This document shows positions 962 through 9,499 of a DNA stretch of 9,668 bases, one piece after another (the stretch's first letter is position 1; each line of letters begins with the position of its first letter). Where the stretch lies: the NCBI GenBank assembly GCA_030610325.1, contig JAUWRZ010000051.1:1-9668 (forward strand), read 5' to 3'. The stretch comes from Sulfurimonadaceae bacterium (GTDB taxonomy: Bacteria > Campylobacterota > Campylobacteria > Campylobacterales > Sulfurimonadaceae). The position numbers were made by a program, and so were the translations under genes. The notes under the pieces are model-generated. The model was not told the origin of the DNA, did not search any database, and saw nothing but the letters and a program-made list of their open reading frames with translations.

Positions 962-2035
962 CTATCGATGACCAAACTCCAGTCTCACCTTTGTACCGAC
1001 ACCCTTCTGCGAATCAAAACTGATACCCAGACCCATCGACTGTGAGAGCCTCTGTACGATATGCATGCCAATACCATGTCCTTGACTATGTTCACTGTAT
1101 AACCGTTCAAACACCTTCTCGGGATGCCTCATCCCGATACCATTGTCCTTTATCTCCAGCGTGTTCTTCTCCAGCACTATTTCGACCATGGGGTCACTCT
1201 CACTGCTGTATTTGCATGCGTTTGCCAGTAGGTTTCCCAAGATCTGCTCAAATGTCTGTCTATCGATCTTCTGGACACTCTCCTTTGGAAGCTCCAGCTT
1301 AAAGAGTATGTCAGGGTAAAGCTCTTTAAACTGTTCACTCACATCAATGACGATACTCACGATATTCTGCTTTATCGATTCGACTTTATGCTCGTTCAAC
1401 AAGATCGAGAGATTCTTGTAGAGTGAGAGTATCTCATTAGTCGAGGACTCTATACGCTCGATGCGTTTGGCATCATTGGCGCCACTTTTTGTACGTAGAA
1501 GTCTGGCATTGAGCAGTATTGAAGTCGCGGGGGTATTGAGATCATGGACCAGGTCTTTTAGAAAGACATCCAGGTTACGTATCATCATCTTTAATGGTCG
1601 AACAGCCTTTAGTGCCAGGATCCAGGAGAGGAAGGAGAAAAGTCCCAAGAGGAGCAGGACTGTCGTTGAGATCTTAATAAGCAGTGCTTCACGGATCTCA
1701 TCATAAGGGTCTGTACGTTTTTTGATGACCAGAAACTCATTTGGCCTTTGTGTAGGTGCTTCATAGATGAAAGACCCGCCCTCTCTTCGCATGACACTCT
1801 TCTCATACCAGGGCCTGTACTGACTTTTAATATCGAAACTAAAGTGCAGCTCAGCATAACTGTTACCCGTATATTGTTGCATCTTCGCATAGTGCAATAT
1901 AGAATCATGTTCATGTGAGAGTGAGACCGCTTTTTGCTCATGAAAATAGAAAGTACCTGCACTGATGATCAAGATGGCGACACTTCCGAAATAGATCCAG
2001 AAGAAGTGCAGTAACGAGTGGTTCTTATAGGGCAT
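962..2035 (-). CDS. Membrane sensor histidine kinase
   Basis: A 357-residue inner-membrane kinase. TM1 is about residues 12-30 and TM2 about 119-142, bracketing a periplasmic sensing region of roughly 90 residues with no recognisable domain. The phosphoacceptor is His164 in the H-box LVHDLNTPA (162-170). The ATP-binding domain shows an N-box (N268, N272), a G1 box DNGIGM (297-302), an F-box (VFERLY, 308-313) and a G2 box GHGIGM (319-324). Only about 22 residues separate TM2 from His164, too few for a normal HAMP domain, so the signal passes more directly from membrane to dimerisation helix. The start overlaps the response-regulator gene by 11 bases; the two are almost certainly a cognate pair. 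It is the last gene of the operon, which suggests it senses something linked to the envelope functions encoded upstream. Confidence 0.93.
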   Translation of the reverse strand: MPYKNHSLLHFFWIYFGSVAILIISAGTFYFHEQKAVSLSHEHDSILHYAKMQQYTGNSYAELHFSFDIKSQYRPWYEKSVMRREGGSFIYEAPTQRPNEFLVIKKRTDPYDEIREALLIKISTTVLLLLGLFSFLSWILALKAVRPLKMMIRNLDVFLKDLVHDLNTPATSILLNARLLRTKSGANDAKRIERIESSTNEILSLYKNLSILLNEHKVESIKQNIVSIVIDVSEQFKELYPDILFKLELPKESVQKIDRQTFEQILGNLLANACKYSSESDPMVEIVLEKNTLEIKDNGIGMRHPEKVFERLYSEHSQGHGIGMHIVQRLSQSMGLGISFDSQKGVGTKVRLEFGHR

Positions 2036-2675
2036 TGAGCTTATACCCTACTCCACGGATGTTCTCGATGGCAATGCCCATCTTTTTGAGTTTACTCACA
2101 TGCACACGAAAAGCATTACCACTTGCTTCCTCATCAGGAGCAAGCTCATAGAGCATATCCTCTTTGCGTACTACCTGTCCAGGCGGTTTGATAAGCATGG
2201 TCAAGATCCTATGCTCATAGGGTGTAAGACTAAGGCCCACACCTTCGAGTGTGAACTTCTCTCGCTGAAGGTCCAGGACCAGACCTCCGCAACGTACCTC
2301 TTTGGAGTGACTGGCGAATGAACGCTCTATAGCCACACGGATACGGATCAGCAGCTCATCCATATCAAAGGGTTTACGGATATAATCATCCGCACCCACA
2401 TCAAAGCCTCTTTTTAAAGAGTTTACATCCACTAAGGCGGTGACAAAGATAGCCGGAGTCTCATCACCACTCTCACGCAGACTCTTAAGCAGCTCAAAAC
2501 CATTGATGAACGGGACATTGACATCAAGCAGTAGCAGGTCAAAATGTGAGACGAAGGTACTGTCAAGTGCTGCTTCACCATCTTTTACCCACTCGACATC
2601 ATACTCCTCACCCTCAAGCAGATCACAGATCGTCTCACCTAAGACCTTATCGTCTTCGACTAAAAGAAGCTTCAT
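2025..2675 (-). CDS. OmpR/PhoB-family response regulator
   Basis: A 216-residue regulator. The receiver domain (1 to about 115) has the acidic pair D8/D9, the phosphoacceptor Asp51 in LLLLDVNVP, Thr79 and Lys101 in the KPF motif. The winged-helix Trans_reg_C domain covers about 129-214, with the conserved end IRGVGYKL. Proteins of this type bind direct repeats with about 10-11-base phasing as tandem dimers. Two such repeats lie in this window (30-48 and 8890-8872), each 8 bases before a -10 element, so it probably activates the DUF2202 gene and its own operon; that is inference. Its start (ATGA) overlaps the stop of the TPR gene by 4 bases, and its end overlaps the kinase start by 11. Confidence 0.95.
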   Translation of the reverse strand: MKLLLVEDDKVLGETICDLLEGEEYDVEWVKDGEAALDSTFVSHFDLLLLDVNVPFINGFELLKSLRESGDETPAIFVTALVDVNSLKRGFDVGADDYIRKPFDMDELLIRIRVAIERSFASHSKEVRCGGLVLDLQREKFTLEGVGLSLTPYEHRILTMLIKPPGQVVRKEDMLYELAPDEEASGNAFRVHVSKLKKMGIAIENIRGVGYKLNAL

Positions 2676-3274
2676 CGTTTACGATTCAGATATTTGATAG
2701 CATCAGGATTGACCGGGTCAAGGATGATGACATCCGTATAGACACCTTCAGCCAGGACATCCTGCTTTTTATGGATATAGATCTGGGCCAGACTGGTAAG
2801 AAAAAAGACATCGGTAGGGTAATACGCCAGCATCTTGTAGATGACTTTCAAAGAGGGGTCATATTCGCCCGTAGTGTTCAAGGAGGTGACAAGATAACGA
2901 TTTGCATAATAGTTATAAAGATCGCTTTGCAAGATATCATAGATCATCCGTTTTGCATCATCATGCCTACTCTGCGCCTGATAGACCTCGATCAGTCCAA
3001 GCTTGGCTTCTGAAGAGGTCGGGACGATAGTGATGGCTGCCTGGTAGTGCTTGATAGCATTGGAATAGTTCCTGTTTAGATAGAAGAGCCAACCTAAGCG
3101 AAAGTTTGGAGTATAGACCTTGGGATAACGGTCATAGACCACCTTGATCGCTTTGATCGCATCAGGATAGTTCTCCATCTTCTCATAATTGTACGAATCA
3201 TAATAGGCCTTTTGGACAAACTCTTCGTACGACCAAAGTGTGACAGCAAAAAATAATACAAGAATAATACGCAT
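2672..3274 (-). CDS. Secreted tetratricopeptide-repeat protein
   Basis: About 200 residues: a short signal peptide (hydrophobic 3-14) followed by several TPR helical pairs over about 20-195, with typical spacing of A/G/Y and closing P residues (for example YPDAIKAI, SNAIKHYQAAI, DDAKRMI). TPRs are protein-binding scaffolds, so a periplasmic adaptor role is likely. Two ATGs are adjacent; I choose the second (3274) because AGGAGG at 3284-3279 is 4 bases from it but only 1 base from the ATG at 3277. It lies 11 bases after the beta-barrel gene. In YaiO-type proteins a TPR region and an outer-membrane barrel can be fused; here they are separate neighbours, which supports a physical pairing. No enzymatic motif is seen. 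Confidence 0.85.
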   Translation of the reverse strand: MRIILVLFFAVTLWSYEEFVQKAYYDSYNYEKMENYPDAIKAIKVVYDRYPKVYTPNFRLGWLFYLNRNYSNAIKHYQAAITIVPTSSEAKLGLIEVYQAQSRHDDAKRMIYDILQSDLYNYYANRYLVTSLNTTGEYDPSLKVIYKMLAYYPTDVFFLTSLAQIYIHKKQDVLAEGVYTDVIILDPVNPDAIKYLNRKR

Positions 3275-3285
3275 CATACCTCCTA

Positions 3286-4146
3286 TTAAAAACGATGGTT
3301 GAGAAAGCCGCTCAACGCAGTCGATGAAGCCTTGGAAAAGTCCGGCTCTTTAAAACTCTCATAGCCATATTGGACTTTAAGACCCGAGCGGTCTGAGAAG
3401 GCATAATGTACAGAAAGCTCAGCGCCTCCTCTATGTTCTTCGTTAAGATTGTACATCACAAAACCCTCATTTCTCATAGCAAACACCTGTTTACCCGCCC
3501 AACCGCCTACAGTCGTCGTCCATTTACCATTAAAGTTCTTCAATGAGATAGCAGCGGAGTGATAACTGTCACGTAGTTGAGCGAGACCCTCGTTCTCAGG
3601 TCTTATATAATCATAGGACAACTTGGCATAAAAGCTGCCGATACTACTGTAGTACTGACCAAATGTAAACCCTATGCTTGGTACTATCTGTATGACATCC
3701 AACCCTTTCGTCGCCTGATCATCAGAGAGGTAGTCATCATAAGTACTATAGTAACCATCTACCCCCATATCGAAAGCATAACCCTCAAAATATTTTATAC
3801 CTGCGAAGAGACTGTAGGCTCCATCAGAAAGTATATCGTTACTGTCGATATAGTGTCCACCAAGACGAACACTATAGCTACTGCTCAGATAGTGCGTCCA
3901 GATGAGGGTGAAATCATTTTGCTTCAGAGCCAACGTATCCACATCGATATAATCGACCTCGGTACGCTCATAAGCGAACTCCAGTCGGTCTTCTACCAAA
4001 CTCTTCTGAAAGTAAGCTCCGGCAAACCAGCCATTGTCTTTAGATGAATCACTATACTCAAGGGCCCCGCCATAAAGGACTATGTCACTTTGCGCATGGA
4101 CGACTACTGCAGTCATAAGCCAAACTGTCGTTATTATCACCTTCAT
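3286..4146 (-). CDS. Outer-membrane beta-barrel protein, YaiO-like
   Basis: A 286-residue protein with a Sec signal peptide (1-18, cleavage likely after HA at 17-18). The rest alternates aromatic and hydrophobic residues with short polar turns, as in transmembrane beta-strands (many Y/F/W, Gly-rich hairpins), and it ends in Phe, the usual barrel-assembly signal. Length and pattern fit the YaiO type of barrel, found near polysaccharide and envelope genes; this assignment is by eye and moderate. The ATGA start overlaps the end of the transporter-peptidase gene, and the TPR gene follows. It would give the operon an outer-membrane component, either a pore or an anchor. The strand count and whether it forms an open channel cannot be judged here. 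Confidence 0.75.
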   Translation of the reverse strand: MKVIITTVWLMTAVVVHAQSDIVLYGGALEYSDSSKDNGWFAGAYFQKSLVEDRLEFAYERTEVDYIDVDTLALKQNDFTLIWTHYLSSSYSVRLGGHYIDSNDILSDGAYSLFAGIKYFEGYAFDMGVDGYYSTYDDYLSDDQATKGLDVIQIVPSIGFTFGQYYSSIGSFYAKLSYDYIRPENEGLAQLRDSYHSAAISLKNFNGKWTTTVGGWAGKQVFAMRNEGFVMYNLNEEHRGGAELSVHYAFSDRSGLKVQYGYESFKEPDFSKASSTALSGFLNHRF

Positions 4147-6209
4147 CGTCTCATCCTTATGATATGCTCTTGTACTTCGATATAGTCAATACCATTACTC
4201 TGATCAAGCCCAACGGCTACCTTCTGCTCGGGATGACTGAAGAGCACACCTTCGATCCTCTGTTCATCCTTAAACTGCCACTTCCCTTTTGTGATATAGG
4301 CTCTGGGAAAGGCTATGGCCCCTATAGACAATAGGTAGGTCAGGTGTGTTCTCAGTGCATAGCGCGCCGGAAGATAATCGTTCCAGGTAAGTCCTTTTCT
4401 ATAGACCAAAGGAATACGCGGGATGGCTATATAGATCTTTTGCAGCCAGGACTCATCTTTGCCCTCATAATCATACAGGTAGAACATCCCCGCCTCTTTG
4501 GCAAGATGCAGACGGTTCCCTTTTTGATCCTCAAAATAGAACCGGCCACTAAAACGGTTCATCTTTACCTTCAGCTCAAAAGTGTCAATGATCTTCTCAC
4601 CATGATACACATCATAACTGTATCTGCTGTCCAAGGTAAAACTCAGTCGCTTATCCAGAGACTTGTCATTGAAATAGGATTCGACCTCTCTCTTCTCAGG
4701 CGGGTCATCATAGAACTGTACATGATCGTCTTCAATATAACTGACAAACTGAAAAGGCAGAGTCTTACTGCCAAGCAGCACACTCTCTTGCACCTGTATA
4801 TGGATATGTGGCTGCGGCGAGTAACCACTGTTCCCACAAAGCCCCAGTATCTGCCCGGCTTCCACATAGTCACCCTTTTTGACTTTTATTGAAGCCCTCG
4901 CAAGATGTGAGATCTCGATGAAATGCCCAAGCTGACTCTGGATGATGATGTAGTTCCCCCAGTTCTCTATGGTGTTCACATGACCTATGAGGTTATCCTC
5001 AACACTATCTTTAAGATCAAGCACATAGCCCGACACCGGGGATAGTACCGGCTTTTTATAAGCAAAATAGTCTTCAAGATGATTCCCCTCACCTTTAAAG
5101 CTCTCCCCATCTTTCATGATGACAAAATCATAAGCATAACGCCACTCTCCCTGATGGGTCCACTCTCCATCAAAGGCCTGATAGACACTCCACTTTCCCG
5201 AAAATGGTAAAAAGAGGTTGATATCACCAAGTCTGAAACGAAAGAAAGAGAGGATATAAGAGCGCAATGTCAACTCAGGTGTCTTTTTGATGTCATACGC
5301 GAACTCCCGGAAGCGAACACTTTGCAAGACGAAGAGAAAGGAGATGACTATGACATTAAAAGGAAGCGTAAAGACAGGGATCTTGTAGATGGCCCAAAAC
5401 GATGCGGAGGCATCGATGAAGAGCACACTCATCGCCACTCCGATCATAGCGATCAGGATACTTCTGATCGAGGGTACCAGGAAGATCGCACCCAAAGCGA
5501 TCGCGATCAGGATGTAGTTAAAGGTATAGGGGTTCGAAAGTGCCAAATGCCAAGAACCCAGCATCATACTATGGACAAATACTCCCACATAAAAACCGGC
5601 TATAGAGAGTAGGAACATGATACGTGAATAGCTTAAGATACCTATGACAAAGAGCAGGCCAACACCACTATAGGGCAGGAACAAGATCGTACCCATCGCT
5701 TTAAGATACATACTCAATATGACAGGCAAGAAGGTGAGATCGACAAAGGCCGGTTTGATGTAAAGTGCCTGTGTATACAAAGAGGTATAGTTAAGCGATG
5801 CCAGATAGATCAGGGTACTCACAAGGGTAAAAGGGAGCGAAAGGATAGGAATAGAGGCTTTTAAGAAGAGATGATAGAGCACAATGGTCAGCAAAAAAGT
5901 AAAGATCGCTGCCATCATGATGAGCAGAGCCGATACTGCTGTCACCTCAAAGATATAGCCTATTGACATCCCGACGAGCAAGGGATTATAGATGTAAAAT
6001 CCGTTTTGCAGGAACTCCACCTCCATGCGGATGAAGTAGGCAAAAGCAAGTACCGTAAAGACGGCGATCAGACCAGAGAGTGTGGTGTTGACATTAATAA
6101 AGGAGATCAGCAGCAGAGCCAGTCCATAACGGGGGTTCTGTAGAAAAAGTATCTCCGCGTAGGAGGAGATGACTGCCGTGAAGTACGACTTCATCGTCGC
6201 ACTATTCAT
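4143..6209 (-). CDS. Urea-transporter-like membrane protein fused to an M23 (LytM) peptidase domain
   Basis: 688 residues from the ATG at 6209. Residues about 20-300 are membrane-embedded and show the internal duplication of the urea transporter (UT) family: IYNPLLVG (73-80) with LPFTL (125-129), then FNYILIAIALG (230-240) with LPFNV (282-286). Residues about 340-490 form an M23 zinc-peptidase-like domain: His352 and Asp361 (H-x8-D), His435 in SHL, and HIH at 468-470. Residues about 500-688 are a soluble region I do not recognise. M23 enzymes normally cut peptidoglycan peptides in the periplasm, so the membrane part should place the C-terminus outside. UT proteins pass urea or short amides; no urease or amidase genes are nearby, so the cargo is open. 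The longer GTG start at 6269 would add 20 residues read across the decarboxylase end; 6209 or 6194 fits the UT start better. The ribosome site is weak in all cases, so coupling is likely. Confidence 0.85.
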   Translation of the reverse strand: MNSATMKSYFTAVISSYAEILFLQNPRYGLALLLISFINVNTTLSGLIAVFTVLAFAYFIRMEVEFLQNGFYIYNPLLVGMSIGYIFEVTAVSALLIMMAAIFTFLLTIVLYHLFLKASIPILSLPFTLVSTLIYLASLNYTSLYTQALYIKPAFVDLTFLPVILSMYLKAMGTILFLPYSGVGLLFVIGILSYSRIMFLLSIAGFYVGVFVHSMMLGSWHLALSNPYTFNYILIAIALGAIFLVPSIRSILIAMIGVAMSVLFIDASASFWAIYKIPVFTLPFNVIVISFLFVLQSVRFREFAYDIKKTPELTLRSYILSFFRFRLGDINLFLPFSGKWSVYQAFDGEWTHQGEWRYAYDFVIMKDGESFKGEGNHLEDYFAYKKPVLSPVSGYVLDLKDSVEDNLIGHVNTIENWGNYIIIQSQLGHFIEISHLARASIKVKKGDYVEAGQILGLCGNSGYSPQPHIHIQVQESVLLGSKTLPFQFVSYIEDDHVQFYDDPPEKREVESYFNDKSLDKRLSFTLDSRYSYDVYHGEKIIDTFELKVKMNRFSGRFYFEDQKGNRLHLAKEAGMFYLYDYEGKDESWLQKIYIAIPRIPLVYRKGLTWNDYLPARYALRTHLTYLLSIGAIAFPRAYITKGKWQFKDEQRIEGVLFSHPEQKVAVGLDQSNGIDYIEVQEHIIRMRR

Positions 6210-7551
6210 GTTGAAGGTACTCTGGCAACCGCTCTCTGGCTTCGACATCATGAAGCTCTTCTGTCTCACGTATCAGATGGGTCTGACCCTGCATATCTAT
6301 CAAGACTACAGAGGGACGGTAACGGATGAACTGCATCCACTGTGTCACACTGTACGCACCGACTGGTGAGATGACCATCTTCGACCCACGTTTGAGACGG
6401 GGCAGCATCACACTCTCATCGATCACATCGATGTTCATACACAGGGGACCATTTACCAATGCAGGTTCCATCATACCGTCTTGTCGCTCAGTAAGCTCAA
6501 GATCATATTTGAACCAAAAAGCAGTATAGAGAAGGTTCACCCCTGCATCCATGATGTAGTTTCGCCTGCCATCGGGAAGACGTTTGGTACCCGTCATGGT
6601 CGTGATAAGATAACCTGCCTCATCGATGAGATGGCGACCGGTCTCAAGATAGAGCCTTGGATAGTTCCCATGCTCTAAGTGCTCATAGAGTGCCGAGGTG
6701 ATCGCCTCCGCATAATCATCAATACTCGGGACCACGACTTCCGGCGGCTGATAGATCCCTTTCAGGTGTGCTTTCGAAGCAAACCCGCCACCCACATCCA
6801 GATAGGTGATGATGTAGTCAGTATGCGCCTCGATCTCTTTCATCAACAGCACCATCTTTGTCGTCTGCATCTTATAGGCATTCGTATCGAGCATAAAGGT
6901 CCCGATATGTGAATGCAGACCATTTAGGTCAAGCTTTCCCCCCGCTTCTATACGTCGTACCGCATCCATCGCCTGACCACTTTCGATGTTAAACCCAAAC
7001 CGGCTCCACTGCGGCTCGATCCCAATATCCATGTTTAGACGAATAGCGACCGGTATCGTCATCCCAAGCTCATCAGCGACCTTCTCAAGATCACTGATCT
7101 CATCAAAGGTATCTATGTGGATCTTCGCACCCTCTGAGGCTGCGGTCTTTAAAGAGTCATAAGGTTTATAGGGACCGTTATAGATGATATCTTTACCTTC
7201 AATACCAAACTTTCGAGCCTTCTCATACTCAAACTCACTCACCACTTCTGCGATAGCACCCTCTTGATGAAAGACTGAGCAGATGGCCTGAAGATAGTTG
7301 GTCTTGTAACTCCATCCAAACTGCACGTTAGGATAACGTGAACTAAAAGCCTCATAAGCTTCTTTGTAAAGCTTACGCATCTTTTGCTCACTAAAGACAA
7401 AGAGAGGAGAGCCGTACTCATCACTCAATGCATGGATGTCTACACCATCGATATCCTTACGGATCTTCTGCTGCATGGAGGGCAAGCCAGCCTTACTCAT
7501 GGAACTCTCTATCTTGATGATCGTCGGACTCTCATATGGCTTCTTACCCAC
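6202..7551 (-). CDS. Fold-type III PLP-dependent decarboxylase, diaminopimelate decarboxylase-like
   Basis: A 449-residue cytoplasmic enzyme of the alanine-racemase/DAP-decarboxylase fold. The PLP lysine is Lys83 (YKTNY); the barrel continues with HSHIG (213-217) and GGGF (254-257) for phosphate binding. ETGR (303-306) replaces the usual EPGR, and Cys371 in GPLC is the partner-subunit cysteine. Tyr400 (GAY) is kept, but the segment after it (FIRYRP) departs from housekeeping DAP decarboxylases, so the substrate is probably another amino acid or a conjugated one. The first 25 residues precede the fold and carry YESPTI (6-11), a leader-like Y-x-x-P-x-I motif. The start is GTG, with AGGAG 6 bases upstream, overlapping the ATP-grasp gene by 8 bases. 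Its end overlaps the transporter gene by 8 bases. A separate lysA elsewhere is expected but not visible here. Confidence 0.88.
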   Translation of the reverse strand: MGKKPYESPTIIKIESSMSKAGLPSMQQKIRKDIDGVDIHALSDEYGSPLFVFSEQKMRKLYKEAYEAFSSRYPNVQFGWSYKTNYLQAICSVFHQEGAIAEVVSEFEYEKARKFGIEGKDIIYNGPYKPYDSLKTAASEGAKIHIDTFDEISDLEKVADELGMTIPVAIRLNMDIGIEPQWSRFGFNIESGQAMDAVRRIEAGGKLDLNGLHSHIGTFMLDTNAYKMQTTKMVLLMKEIEAHTDYIITYLDVGGGFASKAHLKGIYQPPEVVVPSIDDYAEAITSALYEHLEHGNYPRLYLETGRHLIDEAGYLITTMTGTKRLPDGRRNYIMDAGVNLLYTAFWFKYDLELTERQDGMMEPALVNGPLCMNIDVIDESVMLPRLKRGSKMVISPVGAYSVTQWMQFIRYRPSVVLIDMQGQTHLIRETEELHDVEARERLPEYLQHE

Positions 7552-8590
7552 GGCTCTCTCCTTGTGTCGCCAGATGACTCAGGTCTGATACATCGGCTAT
7601 TGTCTCATAGGTGTAACGTATCATCATCTTGCCTGCAGTATACTCTGATGATCGGTCGACCTCTTTACCTTGGACAAAGTCCACCATCCTCTGCGGCAGG
7701 TTGATACCCAGAGCCGTAGCAAAATAGACCCAGGCTGGAAAACGGGGGTTTATCTCGATCATATAGATCCGGTCACCATCGACCATACACTCCAGCTCAA
7801 ACGGCCCCTTCCATGAGGTCTGTTCGACAAACTTTCCTGCAATAGCCAACAACTGCTTATGCCCGATAGAGACACCGTTCCAGAACTTTCCCAGTGCAGT
7901 CGTCGTCATCTTCTTTGCCGCTACCAATCCTAAAGTACCGCCCTCTCCATCACCTACACCGACGACATTAAGCTCTTCACCATGGACAAGTTCCTGGACT
8001 AAGATGGGATAACCCCACTCATTGGCGATCTGGGTGAAACGCAAGATCGCATCAGGCAGGTTTTGAACGATGTAGGCTTTATAGTAGTTCCCTTTTACGA
8101 CTGCAGGGAAGTCAACGATTTTCAGTGCTTTTCTCAGATCATCGATGCTAAAGACCTTATGCGTCTGCGGGTAACTGATGCCAAGCTTCTCTGACACAGC
8201 TTCAAGATGCTCTTTTGCACGGAGATCAAACTGTGCCTGTGTCGGTAAAAAACTCTTTATACCATCTTGAGCCAGTTCAGCCTGATACCTGATGTAAAGT
8301 GGAAGCTCGGCATCAAGGTTGGGGATGATCATATCCAGGCCGCTTTGCTCTTTGATCTTCTTCAGATGCATAGAGATCGCTTCCCACCCTTTGTTTGGAT
8401 AAGGGAGTATGTAACTCTTATCGATCACAAAACCCATATAGTTACCGGGATCTTGGATATCATAACTCAGGCCGATCGTGGTGATAGATGCGTCTGAGTC
8501 TTTGAGACTGCGTGCCACTCCTATGCCCGGACCAGGGTTATCAGTGTCGTTGATACCGCTTAATGCTATCTTCAACTCTTTTTTGACCAT
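7544..8590 (-). CDS. ATP-grasp ligase of unknown specificity
   Basis: A 348-residue enzyme resembling short carbamoyl-phosphate-synthase-like ATP-grasp proteins. It has an N-terminal Rossmann-like pre-ATP-grasp domain with PGPGIGVARSLK (19-30), then the ATP-grasp core: Lys166 in FPAVVKG, the adenine-binding segment VQELVHGEE (198-206), Glu265/Glu267, and the metal-binding E-x-N-P-R motif (279-283) continuing as FPAW. Such enzymes join a carboxylate, through an acyl-phosphate, to an amine or thiol. With a decarboxylase directly downstream and a PqqD-like protein directly upstream, it probably ligates an amino acid or acts on a peptide; the substrate is not readable from sequence. It starts 1 base after the PqqD-like stop with no strong ribosome site, so translation is probably coupled. 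It ends overlapping the decarboxylase start by 8 bases. Confidence 0.9.
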   Translation of the reverse strand: MVKKELKIALSGINDTDNPGPGIGVARSLKDSDASITTIGLSYDIQDPGNYMGFVIDKSYILPYPNKGWEAISMHLKKIKEQSGLDMIIPNLDAELPLYIRYQAELAQDGIKSFLPTQAQFDLRAKEHLEAVSEKLGISYPQTHKVFSIDDLRKALKIVDFPAVVKGNYYKAYIVQNLPDAILRFTQIANEWGYPILVQELVHGEELNVVGVGDGEGGTLGLVAAKKMTTTALGKFWNGVSIGHKQLLAIAGKFVEQTSWKGPFELECMVDGDRIYMIEINPRFPAWVYFATALGINLPQRMVDFVQGKEVDRSSEYTAGKMMIRYTYETIADVSDLSHLATQGESRG

Positions 8591-8591
8591 C

Positions 8592-8831
8592 TCAGTCGAC
8601 CAGTCTAAACGATTTCAGCTGCTTGATAAAATCCAGGACATCAGTGAGGCTGTCAAGTGCCTCGACATCATACATCTCACTCAACGCCTCAGCGATCTCA
8701 CGTTCATGTTTACCTGCTTTGAGTGCTTTGATGATCTCTACTGCCGTCGCATTGAGGGTAAAACTCTCACCACTCATAGGATCAAAGGCAAAACCTGTAT
8801 CGTTGATAGCCATCATCTCTACTCTACTCAT
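8592..8831 (-). CDS. PqqD-like small protein (RRE-type peptide-binding fold)
   Basis: 79 residues from the ATG at 8831. GFAFDPMSGESFTLN (13-27), followed by a helix with AVEIIKAL, then EIAEAL and VLDFIKQL, matches the PqqD/RiPP-recognition-element pattern: an N-terminal beta-sheet and a three-helix bundle. Known members bind leader peptides and hand them to modifying enzymes; others are poorly understood. No radical SAM gene or obvious precursor peptide is visible here, so its client may be one of the operon's own proteins. A GTG one codon earlier (8834) is possible, but GGAG at 8840-8837 lies 5 bases before the ATG and only 2 before the GTG, so I take the ATG. It is the first gene of the operon, directly behind the promoter at 8890-8858. 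Confidence 0.85.
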   Translation of the reverse strand: MSRVEMMAINDTGFAFDPMSGESFTLNATAVEIIKALKAGKHEREIAEALSEMYDVEALDSLTDVLDFIKQLKSFRLVD

Positions 8832-8857: not shown

Positions 8858-8890
8858 ATTATATGGCTCATACCATTAATGCAGTGTTAA
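8858..8890 (-). promoter_or_regulatory. Putative operator and -10 element of the eight-gene operon
   Basis: On the minus strand, TTAACACT (8890-8883) and TTAATGGT (8879-8872) form a direct repeat with an 11-base period. After 8 bases comes a consensus TATAAT (8863-8858). A start near 8851 gives a leader of about 20 bases before the PqqD-like ATG at 8831. The first half-site is formed by the last sense codons of the upstream lipoprotein gene. Half-site, period and spacing equal those at 30-62 on the + strand. I infer binding by the operon's own OmpR-family regulator. Confidence 0.6.
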
Positions 8891-9499
8891 GGGGTGCTGT
8901 TCTCTGCACTCATCTTCAAGCCACTGCGTCAACTCAAGTTCAAACTTCCCTGTCCCCTGACTCCATGCCAAGACAGCGTTCTCGACATCTCCAGGCATCT
9001 CCGTCACTCTATAAGTAAACCTTTTCTGAGCAAGAAGAGCCCGGCTGTACTGATCTACCAACACCGCATAGAGTCTTAGCACTGTATCTGCACTGCCATC
9101 ATCTGCTATCTGCTGCTCCATCTCTTCAAGCCGTACTTCCAGTAACCACTCATCTTTAGCCAGAGACTTATAGGGGATGACACCTTTATATAACTCACTG
9201 TCTGTCACAGCCTGTTCGATCAGTTGCTGTAACTGATCCGTTGGTGTCTCTTCCCAGCGAGCTCGCGTGTAGCGGTAGCGTCTGTTATGTCCATCACTGT
9301 AGAAGATACTCGTACTTTTGAGCCATTTAGGACTCTGTATCAACGCTACACGGATGACACGCTCACGACACCCCTGTTCAGAAGAGCTCACGACCTCCAT
9401 TCGTGTGTCCAGATGATAACTCACTGACGGCGGCACCTCTCTCGTCAATGAACAAGCACTAAAGAACAGCATGATCCCAGCCAGTAATAACGCTCTCAT
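8876..9499 (-). CDS. ABC-transport auxiliary lipoprotein, PqiC/DUF330-like
   Basis: A 207-residue protein with a lipoprotein signal peptide: hydrophobic 3-13 and a lipobox FSAC with the lipidated Cys16. The body has the layout of the ABC_trans_aux (DUF330, PqiC) family: an early YHLDT strand, repeated I/V-R-V-A and W-L-K-S elements, a helix around LQQLIEQAV, and a C-terminal helix with AVLAWSQGTGKFELELTQWL. Members work with MCE (MlaD/PqiB) proteins and an ABC permease and ATPase in lipid movement between membranes. It starts with ATGA overlapping the MCE gene's stop by 4 bases, with GGGAGAG just upstream. It is probably the last gene of that operon. No terminator is visible before the next gene, so read-through into the PqqD-like operon is possible. 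Confidence 0.85.
   Translation of the reverse strand: MRALLLAGIMLFFSACSLTREVPPSVSYHLDTRMEVVSSSEQGCRERVIRVALIQSPKWLKSTSIFYSDGHNRRYRYTRARWEETPTDQLQQLIEQAVTDSELYKGVIPYKSLAKDEWLLEVRLEEMEQQIADDGSADTVLRLYAVLVDQYSRALLAQKRFTYRVTEMPGDVENAVLAWSQGTGKFELELTQWLEDECREQHPLTLH

Follow-up and report, generated by a model that had tools for sequence, protein, structure and literature searches.

An eight-gene operon of a Sulfurimonadaceae bacterium with a conserved four-gene core that may make and export a small amide

Organisation of the operon

Eight neighbouring genes, encoding among others a ligase, a decarboxylase and a urea-type channel joined to a peptidase, raise the question of what such a set makes and where its product goes. 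In the window (the whole stretch of DNA analysed, 9,668 nucleotides) they were found as eight ORFs of the ORF list, all on the minus strand, from 8834 to 962:

8834-8592, minus strand: pqqD, 80 aa, with an alternative in-frame ATG at 8831
8590-7544, minus strand: ATP-grasp ligase, 348 aa
7551-6202, minus strand: PLP-dependent decarboxylase of alanine-racemase fold, 449 aa
6269-4143, minus strand: UT-M23, 708 aa, with urea-transporter, M23 peptidase and further beta-rich domains
4146-3286, minus strand: barrel-like secreted protein, predicted outer-membrane, 286 aa
3277-2672, minus strand: TPR protein with a signal-peptide-like N-terminus, 201 aa
2675-2025, minus strand: OmpR-type response regulator, accessory, 216 aa
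2035-962, minus strand: histidine kinase, accessory, 357 aa

The likely start of UT-M23 is the ATG at 6209, which gives a 688-aa form and an 8-base overlap with the decarboxylase gene. From pqqD to the kinase gene the gaps are 1, -8, -68 (-8 from the ATG start), -4, 8, -4 and -11 bases, and the coordinates bear out the original prediction of eight genes on one strand with tiny gaps or overlaps. Pfam backs the domain names of all window copies but the barrel. The single promoter also predicted was not recovered: a consensus scan for sigma-70-type sites turned up nothing promoter-like on the minus strand directly before pqqD. The lipoprotein gene at 9499-8876 lies on the same strand and stops 41 bases short of pqqD, so that read-through into the operon is possible. 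No RNA element in the window scored above the Rfam gathering scores. A role in anti-phage defence was rejected, as the five proteins submitted gave no PADLOC match.

Conservation and distribution of the core genes

In a survey of the phylum covering 397 genomes, 19 had the ATP-grasp, and UT-M23 was found in the identical 19; the decarboxylase was present at E <= 1e-90 in 18 of these and broken in the nineteenth. The three families, whose co-occurrence had been put forward as a check on the original prediction, are not scattered. The genes for PqqD, ATP-grasp, decarboxylase and UT-M23 adjoined one another in the same order and on the same strand in all 25 other loci read, each time with the PqqD homologue directly upstream of the ATP-grasp, a recurrence beyond chance. 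Therefore, we conclude that the first four genes are a conserved unit. The gaps between the ATP-grasp, decarboxylase and UT-M23 genes were at most 12 bases, two broken loci excepted. A single-protein scan of the genome contigs returned one locus.

Distances between the core proteins correlate among themselves (r = 0.85-0.92), and the correlation with the core is lower for the barrel (0.74-0.84) and the TPR protein (0.55-0.66). This comparison covered 22 loci, with PqqD included for 11, and omitted L033 (a near-duplicate), L039 (at a contig end), and L066 and L076 (broken frames); the UT-M23/decarboxylase rows of L038, L063 and L067 were cut at the stop codon between the in-frame neighbours, which left the correlations unchanged. 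Residue counts were taken from alignments of 77 UT-M23 proteins (A1), the window copy with 82 ATP-grasp proteins (A2) and the window copy with 57 decarboxylases (A3), each out of the best 120 of a larger number, and alignments A4, A5 and A6 cover 14, 10 and 12 of the 26 loci. Domains, gene order, joint distribution and conserved active-site residues are direct readings of the sequences.

The core families are present too in Magnetococcales, Persephonella and Verrucomicrobiota, and the unit apparently also in Nitratifractor salsuginis and Nitrosophilus alvini. Their source annotations are 'urea transporter', 'diaminopimelate decarboxylase' or 'alanine racemase', and 'carbamoyl-phosphate synthase large subunit'; families annotated apart are here joined as one co-inherited unit of several bacterial phyla, and the annotations are corrected. 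Such a unit points to a small molecule not yet known. Among the papers listed by literature searches, none was recognised as describing this gene set, in agreement with the earlier statement that no described pathway with it was known; PMC9088363 and PMC12407830 had no bearing on it.

Barrel, TPR and two-component genes

Homologues of the barrel and of the TPR protein were each found in 24 of the 26 loci; L034 is without the barrel and L036 without the TPR gene. The window copy of the barrel had no Pfam match, and OMP_b-brl (PF13505) was matched by one of the 14 aligned family members (E 5.5e-4); each of the 14 has a signal-peptide-like N-terminus and F or Y as its last residue. Several TPR models of Pfam scored above cut-off for the TPR protein.

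The response regulator matches PF00072 and PF00486, and the histidine kinase PF00512 and PF02518. Of the 26 loci, 5 have an adjacent kinase and 17 an adjacent regulator on the same strand. The kinase does not belong to the core, and the claim of a sensor as a core part of the operon was not supported. When seven short regulators were aligned, five had no aspartate at the phospho-acceptor position and all seven were without the five residues that follow it.

ATP-grasp and PqqD

The ATP-grasp protein matched PF15632 at 30.6 bits (cut-off 29.1), and its structure model (pLDDT 94.8) was nearest to 2pn1. The nearest folds were a carbamoyl-phosphate-synthase-like protein and biotin carboxylases, with no known amide ligase among them. 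K126, K166, E206, E265, E267, E279, N281 and R283 were found in 83 of 83 ATP-grasp sequences (from the best 120).

PqqD reached 46.8 bits for PF05402 (cut-off 23.4) and, in the window copy, 39.7 bits for TIGR04353 (PqqD_rel_X; cut-off 35); 10 of 12 PqqD members matched PqqD_rel_X at E <= 0.001. Its last residues differ from locus to locus, on which ground a role as C-terminal carrier was rejected. With gaps of at most 12 bases, the intact loci leave no room for a precursor peptide gene between ATP-grasp, decarboxylase and UT-M23, and none was found there; peptide recognition by PqqD is a putative role. By its score above the TIGR04353 cut-off the window PqqD resembles that of the HPr-rel-A system, but this system was rejected since an HprK_rel_A kinase above cut-off was found in 0 of 25 carriers. 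Matches to HprK_rel_A below cut-off occurred in four of the 25; G001 has two (105.9 and 95.6 bits; cut-off 200) and G000 none whatever.

The decarboxylase

The window decarboxylase matches PF02784 and PF00278. Its closest solved relative is 7kh2, the N-citrylornithine decarboxylase FslC/FigC (E 6.9e-56). For TIGR01048 (LysA) it scored 218.0 bits, under the cut-off of 297.9, and the 25 cluster copies scored 199-236.2 bits; a separate LysA gene above this cut-off was present in 24 of the 25 carrier genomes. In LysA of M. jannaschii, R343 is the arginine that binds the distal carboxylate (PMC7857480), and this position is T343 in all 58 decarboxylases aligned (from the best 120). LysA identity was rejected on these three grounds: the score, the lost DAP-binding arginine and the separate LysA of the carriers.

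The score for NF041039, the N-citrylornithine decarboxylase model, was 221.1 bits, under the curated cut-off of 500. The FigC citrate contacts H357 and R387 are replaced by I374 and Q404 in 58 of 58 decarboxylases (from the best 120), and with the loss of these contacts this identity was rejected as well. In 58 of 58 (from the best 120), T343 and M372 align with T327 and M355 of FigC, which stand where other family members have charged side-chain contacts (PMC7857480). The loss of charged contacts as in FigC, together with the absence of the citrate contacts, suggests that the substrate is probably another acylated amino acid, not N-citrylornithine. Passages of PMC7857480 consider clade members that are neither DAPDC nor D-ODC more likely to belong to specialised metabolism.

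The UT-M23 channel-peptidase

Fold search and the alignment of 77 proteins (from the best 120) revealed that the UT domain keeps the urea-transporter fold and the urea-type filter residues. It differs from dvUT, UT-A and UT-B in the fused M23 and further domain, in its score for TIGR03441 (96 bits, under the cut-off of 274.6) and in T or A at the position of dvUT E187 in 73 of 77 proteins (from the best 120). H352, D361, H435, H468 and H470, which we take to be the metal and catalytic (active-site) residues of M23, are kept in 77 of 77 (from the best 120).

To place the M23 domain, UT helix ends were taken from the AlphaFold model and loop sides were assigned after the UT-A2 placements given in PMC4357013 (T5a-Pb loop outside; T2a end and T4b start inside), with the sites mapped onto UT-M23 by our own count. 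K and R of the UT loops came to 8.95 inside versus 1.65 outside, the inside value being higher in 77 of 77 proteins (from the best 120), and this positive-inside bias, with the termini inside, persisted in 77 of 77 (from the best 120) with both tails left out. With E312 and R324 in all 77 (from the best 120), the segment behind the last UT helix is unlikely to cross the membrane. Loop charges and UT topology predict a cytoplasmic M23 domain in 77 of 77 (from the best 120), and its earlier placement in an envelope-spanning set was not borne out. Such a location would be unusual, since M23 peptidases with solved relatives here work outside the cytoplasm. The domain would differ from LasA, lysostaphin and related M23 peptidases in being joined to a channel and cytoplasmic; an M23 facing the cytoplasm at a urea-type pore would, if true, revise the view of this peptidase family.

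Urease-linked urea uptake was rejected. PF00449 (urease) was matched at E <= 0.001 in 4 of 25 carriers, two of them above cut-off, and all these matches were short and partial, in frames of 397-426 aa; a full urease-like match was found in none of the 25, which speaks against the import of urea to feed a urease.

Proposed function

We propose, with a probability of about 0.38, that the operon makes a small decarboxylated amide, which is trimmed by M23 and exported by UT and the barrel. The gene set (ligase, decarboxylase, urea-type channel) fits the synthesis and transport of a small amide in the original prediction, whereas the core sensor and single promoter attached to it found no support. 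The ATP-grasp would form a bond between a carboxylate and the side-chain amine of a diamino acid or a comparable compound, PqqD being the likely helper that holds or guides the substrate. Judging from its pocket residues, the decarboxylase would then strip the alpha-carboxylate off the side-chain-masked amino acid, as FigC does on N-citrylornithine, with a masking group other than citrate. The cytoplasm-facing M23 at the channel is predicted to cut an amide bond, giving a fragment that fits the pore, and this fragment would leave through UT, pass the periplasmic TPR protein and exit through the barrel. Substrate, product and transport direction are what we infer here.

Several points count against this model: the nearest ATP-grasp structures include no known amide ligase, a cytoplasmic M23 would be unusual, no precursor peptide gene for PqqD turned up in the core, barrel and TPR distances track the core less closely, and L034 and L036 are without the barrel and the TPR gene, respectively. 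The urea-type pore is narrow, and passage of a diamine amide may fail. In a more far-reaching and rather doubtful version, the ATP-grasp builds an intermediate under the guidance of PqqD, and a zinc peptidase hung on the channel in the cytoplasm cuts the small decarboxylated amide off it and feeds this directly into the pore. If true, this would be a new kind of machine for release and export, combining a cytoplasmic channel-coupled M23 with a biosynthetic route common to several phyla.

With UT reversed or otherwise, M23 could lie in the periplasm and open or bind peptidoglycan, and channel, TPR protein and barrel would form a trans-envelope conduit for the product. The fold-search relatives of M23 are peptidoglycan peptidases, and barrel and TPR protein look secreted; however, the positive-inside bias puts the termini inside in 77 of 77 (from the best 120), tails excluded too, the UT-A2 placements agree (PMC4357013) and the E312/R324 segment is unlikely to cross the membrane, which makes this arrangement unlikely. 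PqqD might otherwise bring a peptide encoded elsewhere to the ATP-grasp and decarboxylase, with M23 as leader or core peptidase. The window PqqD scores above cut-off for a PqqD family that bears the name of a peptide chaperone, and ATP-grasp and PqqD are both known from ribosomal peptide pathways, as passages of PMC8939145 describe. The core gaps, however, hold no precursor gene, and we consider peptide modification improbable.

Quite improbable, in our estimate, is uptake and breakdown, in which a small amide would enter through barrel and UT and be processed by M23, ATP-grasp and decarboxylase as a source of nitrogen or carbon. Transport through urea-type channels is passive and can run either way, and the urea-transporter fold and filter suit import; an ATP-consuming ligase beside a decarboxylase better suits synthesis, however, and no full urease was found in the 25 carriers, the PF00449 matches in 4 of them being partial. 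The ATP-grasp could also join bicarbonate to an amine prepared by the decarboxylase, and the urea-type molecule formed would exit through the pore. The carbamoyl-phosphate-synthase-like and biotin carboxylase folds nearest to the ligase and the urea-type filter agree with such a ureido or carbamoyl route, but the fold is common to the whole ATP-grasp superfamily, whatever the substrate, and by Pfam the window encodes no glutaminase or ammonia source; we regard it as similarly improbable.

Comparison with known biosynthetic systems

BtrJ of the butirosin set BtrI-BtrJ-BtrK is an ATP-grasp, as is the ligase of the operon, and BtrK shares a clade with the operon decarboxylase, which matches 7ru7 at E 1.4e-20. 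The substrate of BtrK is the glutamylated small protein BtrI (PMC7857480); BtrI is a carrier, whereas the operon has a PqqD with locus-variable C-terminal residues. Francisella rhizoferrin synthesis (FslA/FigA and FslC/FigC) uses a NIS synthetase instead of an ATP-grasp, the passages of PMC7857480 on it show no counterpart to PqqD or UT-M23, and the citrate contacts H357 and R387 of its FigC are I374 and Q404 here (58/58, from the best 120). It is like the operon in that a ligase makes a side-chain amide on which a related alanine-racemase-fold decarboxylase acts, and T327 and M355 of FigC are T343 and M372 in the operon enzyme.

Distribution and order of the core genes

The genes for PqqD, ATP-grasp, the decarboxylase and UT-M23 (a urea-transporter domain and an M23 peptidase domain in one protein) form one unit. 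Across the phylum, UT-M23 was found in 19 of 397 genomes (E ≤ 1e-40); these come from four families and 11 of the 69 genera, so the counts are not independent. ATP-grasp was found in the identical 19 genomes (E ≤ 1e-30) and the decarboxylase in 18 (E ≤ 1e-90), all among the UT-M23 carriers; in the nineteenth, G259, the decarboxylase frame (locus L076) is split in two. At these thresholds none of the 397 genomes had ATP-grasp or the decarboxylase without UT-M23. The three genes, for which the original prediction had proposed a co-occurrence search, are therefore joint in 18–19 of 397 genomes and not scattered. Among 60 close relatives, the window's own genome (G000) counted, nine gave long UT-M23 matches (E ≤ 1.5e-159), the remaining matches being mostly short M23 stretches; G001, of the same genus, also carries the cluster.

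The order PqqD–ATP-grasp–decarboxylase–UT-M23 was kept on one strand in all 25 other loci read, including three imperfect ones: L066 and L076 with broken frames and L039 at a contig end. In L066 (genome G100) and L076 the decarboxylase and UT-M23 frames are broken and PqqD and ATP-grasp are still open, reflecting either decay or sequencing error. With the window included, a barrel homologue was present in 24 of 26 loci (missing in L034, fragmentary in L076; it precedes pqqD in L074 and L075) and a TPR gene also in 24 (missing in L036, partial in L035 and L076); the L039 contig stops short of both positions. Inter-locus protein distances correlated at r 0.85–0.92 within the core, 0.74–0.84 between core and barrel, and 0.55–0.66 between core and TPR protein, a pattern consistent with envelope partners that are tied less closely to the core; since shared ancestry alone also yields such correlation, these values are supporting evidence only.

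The proposal that the operon has its own sensor did not extend to most loci: a histidine kinase adjoins in 5 of 26, and a response regulator is adjacent on the same strand in 17. Five of seven short regulators aligned lack an aspartate at the phospho-acceptor position of the window copy, and in all seven the five residues that follow are missing. In L040, L062, L063, L064 and L068 the regulators are orphan OmpR-like proteins of about 190–203 aa that lack the aligned aspartate.

Beyond the phylum, protein searches named Magnetococcales, Persephonella and other Aquificae, and Verrucomicrobiota; Nautiliaceae were also among the names. Gene order was read within the phylum, and co-location of hits to different genes elsewhere is suggested by equal record sizes: proteins P0022, P0145 and P0267 on one 79,859-base contig of Magnetococcales bacterium HHB-1, P0033 and P0269 on one of 38,058 bases in Persephonella, P0029 and P0219 on one of 14,846 bases in Verrucomicrobiota, and P0014 and P0138 on one 1,807,889-base sequence of Nitrosophilus alvini.

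Decarboxylase and proposed function

The decarboxylase has an alanine-racemase fold, with complete PLP residues in all 58 copies aligned, the window's own and 57 of the best 120 matches. Its nearest solved structure is an N-citrylornithine decarboxylase (7kh2, E 6.9e-56), followed by DAP decarboxylases (best E 4.8e-38), enzymes for lysine/ornithine and for D-ornithine/D-lysine (about 1e-24), BtrK entries (about 1e-20) and ornithine decarboxylases (best E 3.1e-14). Substrate-setting residues of the family are named in PMC7857480, according to which T327 and M355 of FigC, the N-citrylornithine decarboxylase of the Francisella rhizoferrin pathway, replace charged side-chain contacts of related enzymes, and H357 and R387 are modelled citrate contacts. 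By alignment (offset 19, verified at K63, C354, H357 and R387), the former pair is T343/M372 and the latter I374/Q404 in 58 of 58 aligned copies. One pair being kept and the citrate contacts replaced, the substrate side chain is probably masked by a group other than citrate. Assignment as LysA was rejected: the 25 cluster copies score 199–236.2 against a cut-off of 297.9, and 24 of 25 carriers have a separate LysA above the curated cut-off; in G031 the match is partial and lies at the end of a contig.

The gene set fits a pathway that makes, trims and exports a small decarboxylated amide, with substrate, product and direction of transport inferred. The ligase, masked-amino-acid decarboxylase, peptidase and small-amide channel would make, trim and export the amide, which may cross the outer membrane via the barrel and TPR proteins. 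A bold reading would make M23 a cytoplasmic peptidase coupled to the channel. The rhizoferrin pathway is closest in logic, but the decarboxylase's partners are exchanged here, and we therefore class this as a specialised-metabolite operon. No description of the gene set was found in a literature search that had little reach into subscription journals. Urea import for a urease was also considered and rejected: the urease model PF00449 matched in four of 25 carriers (E ≤ 0.001; two above cut-off), all short, partial matches in frames of 397–426 aa.

ATP-grasp, PqqD and UT-M23

The ATP-grasp model (pLDDT 94.8) is nearest to 2pn1, recorded as a carbamoyl-phosphate synthase large subunit, and next to biotin carboxylases. 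Eight residues, which we take to be catalytic, are invariant in 83 of 83 copies aligned, the window's own and 82 of the best 120 matches. The window PqqD exceeds the cut-off of TIGR04353 (PqqD of the HPr-rel-A system), which 10 of 12 members match at E ≤ 0.001. The kinase of that system was above cut-off in none of the 25 carriers; the two matches in G001 fall short of it, at 105.9 and 95.6 bits versus 200. In UT-M23, all 77 copies aligned from the best 120 matches keep C458 (688-aa numbering), a cysteine beside the M23 active site.

Operon layout in the window

The window is the entire 9,668-base contig C310 of a fragmented genome (539 contigs, 83% complete). PqqD, ATP-grasp, PLP decarboxylase, UT-M23, barrel-like protein, TPR protein, response regulator and histidine kinase follow one another on the minus strand from 8834 to 962 with gaps of −68 to +8 bases, confirming the predicted single-strand run of eight genes with tiny gaps or overlaps; no overlap exceeds 11 bases if UT-M23 starts at the ATG at 6209. 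A single promoter for all eight had also been predicted, and is not supported by the consensus scan of the window for sigma-70-type sites, which found no minus-strand promoter-like site directly ahead of pqqD. The pqqD transcript could be shared with the gene upstream:

8876–9499, minus strand: ABC_trans_aux lipoprotein gene (PF03886), 3′ end 41 bases upstream of pqqD

None of the other loci read has a gene labelled as its counterpart next to the cluster, and no Rfam match was found anywhere in the window. At 96–695 on the plus strand lies a DUF2202 protein (PF09968, 102.3 bits), whose N-terminal RREFL and following hydrophobic stretch resemble a twin-arginine signal. The inverted repeat ttctatgc...gcatagaa at 807–831, between convergent genes, is perhaps a terminator.
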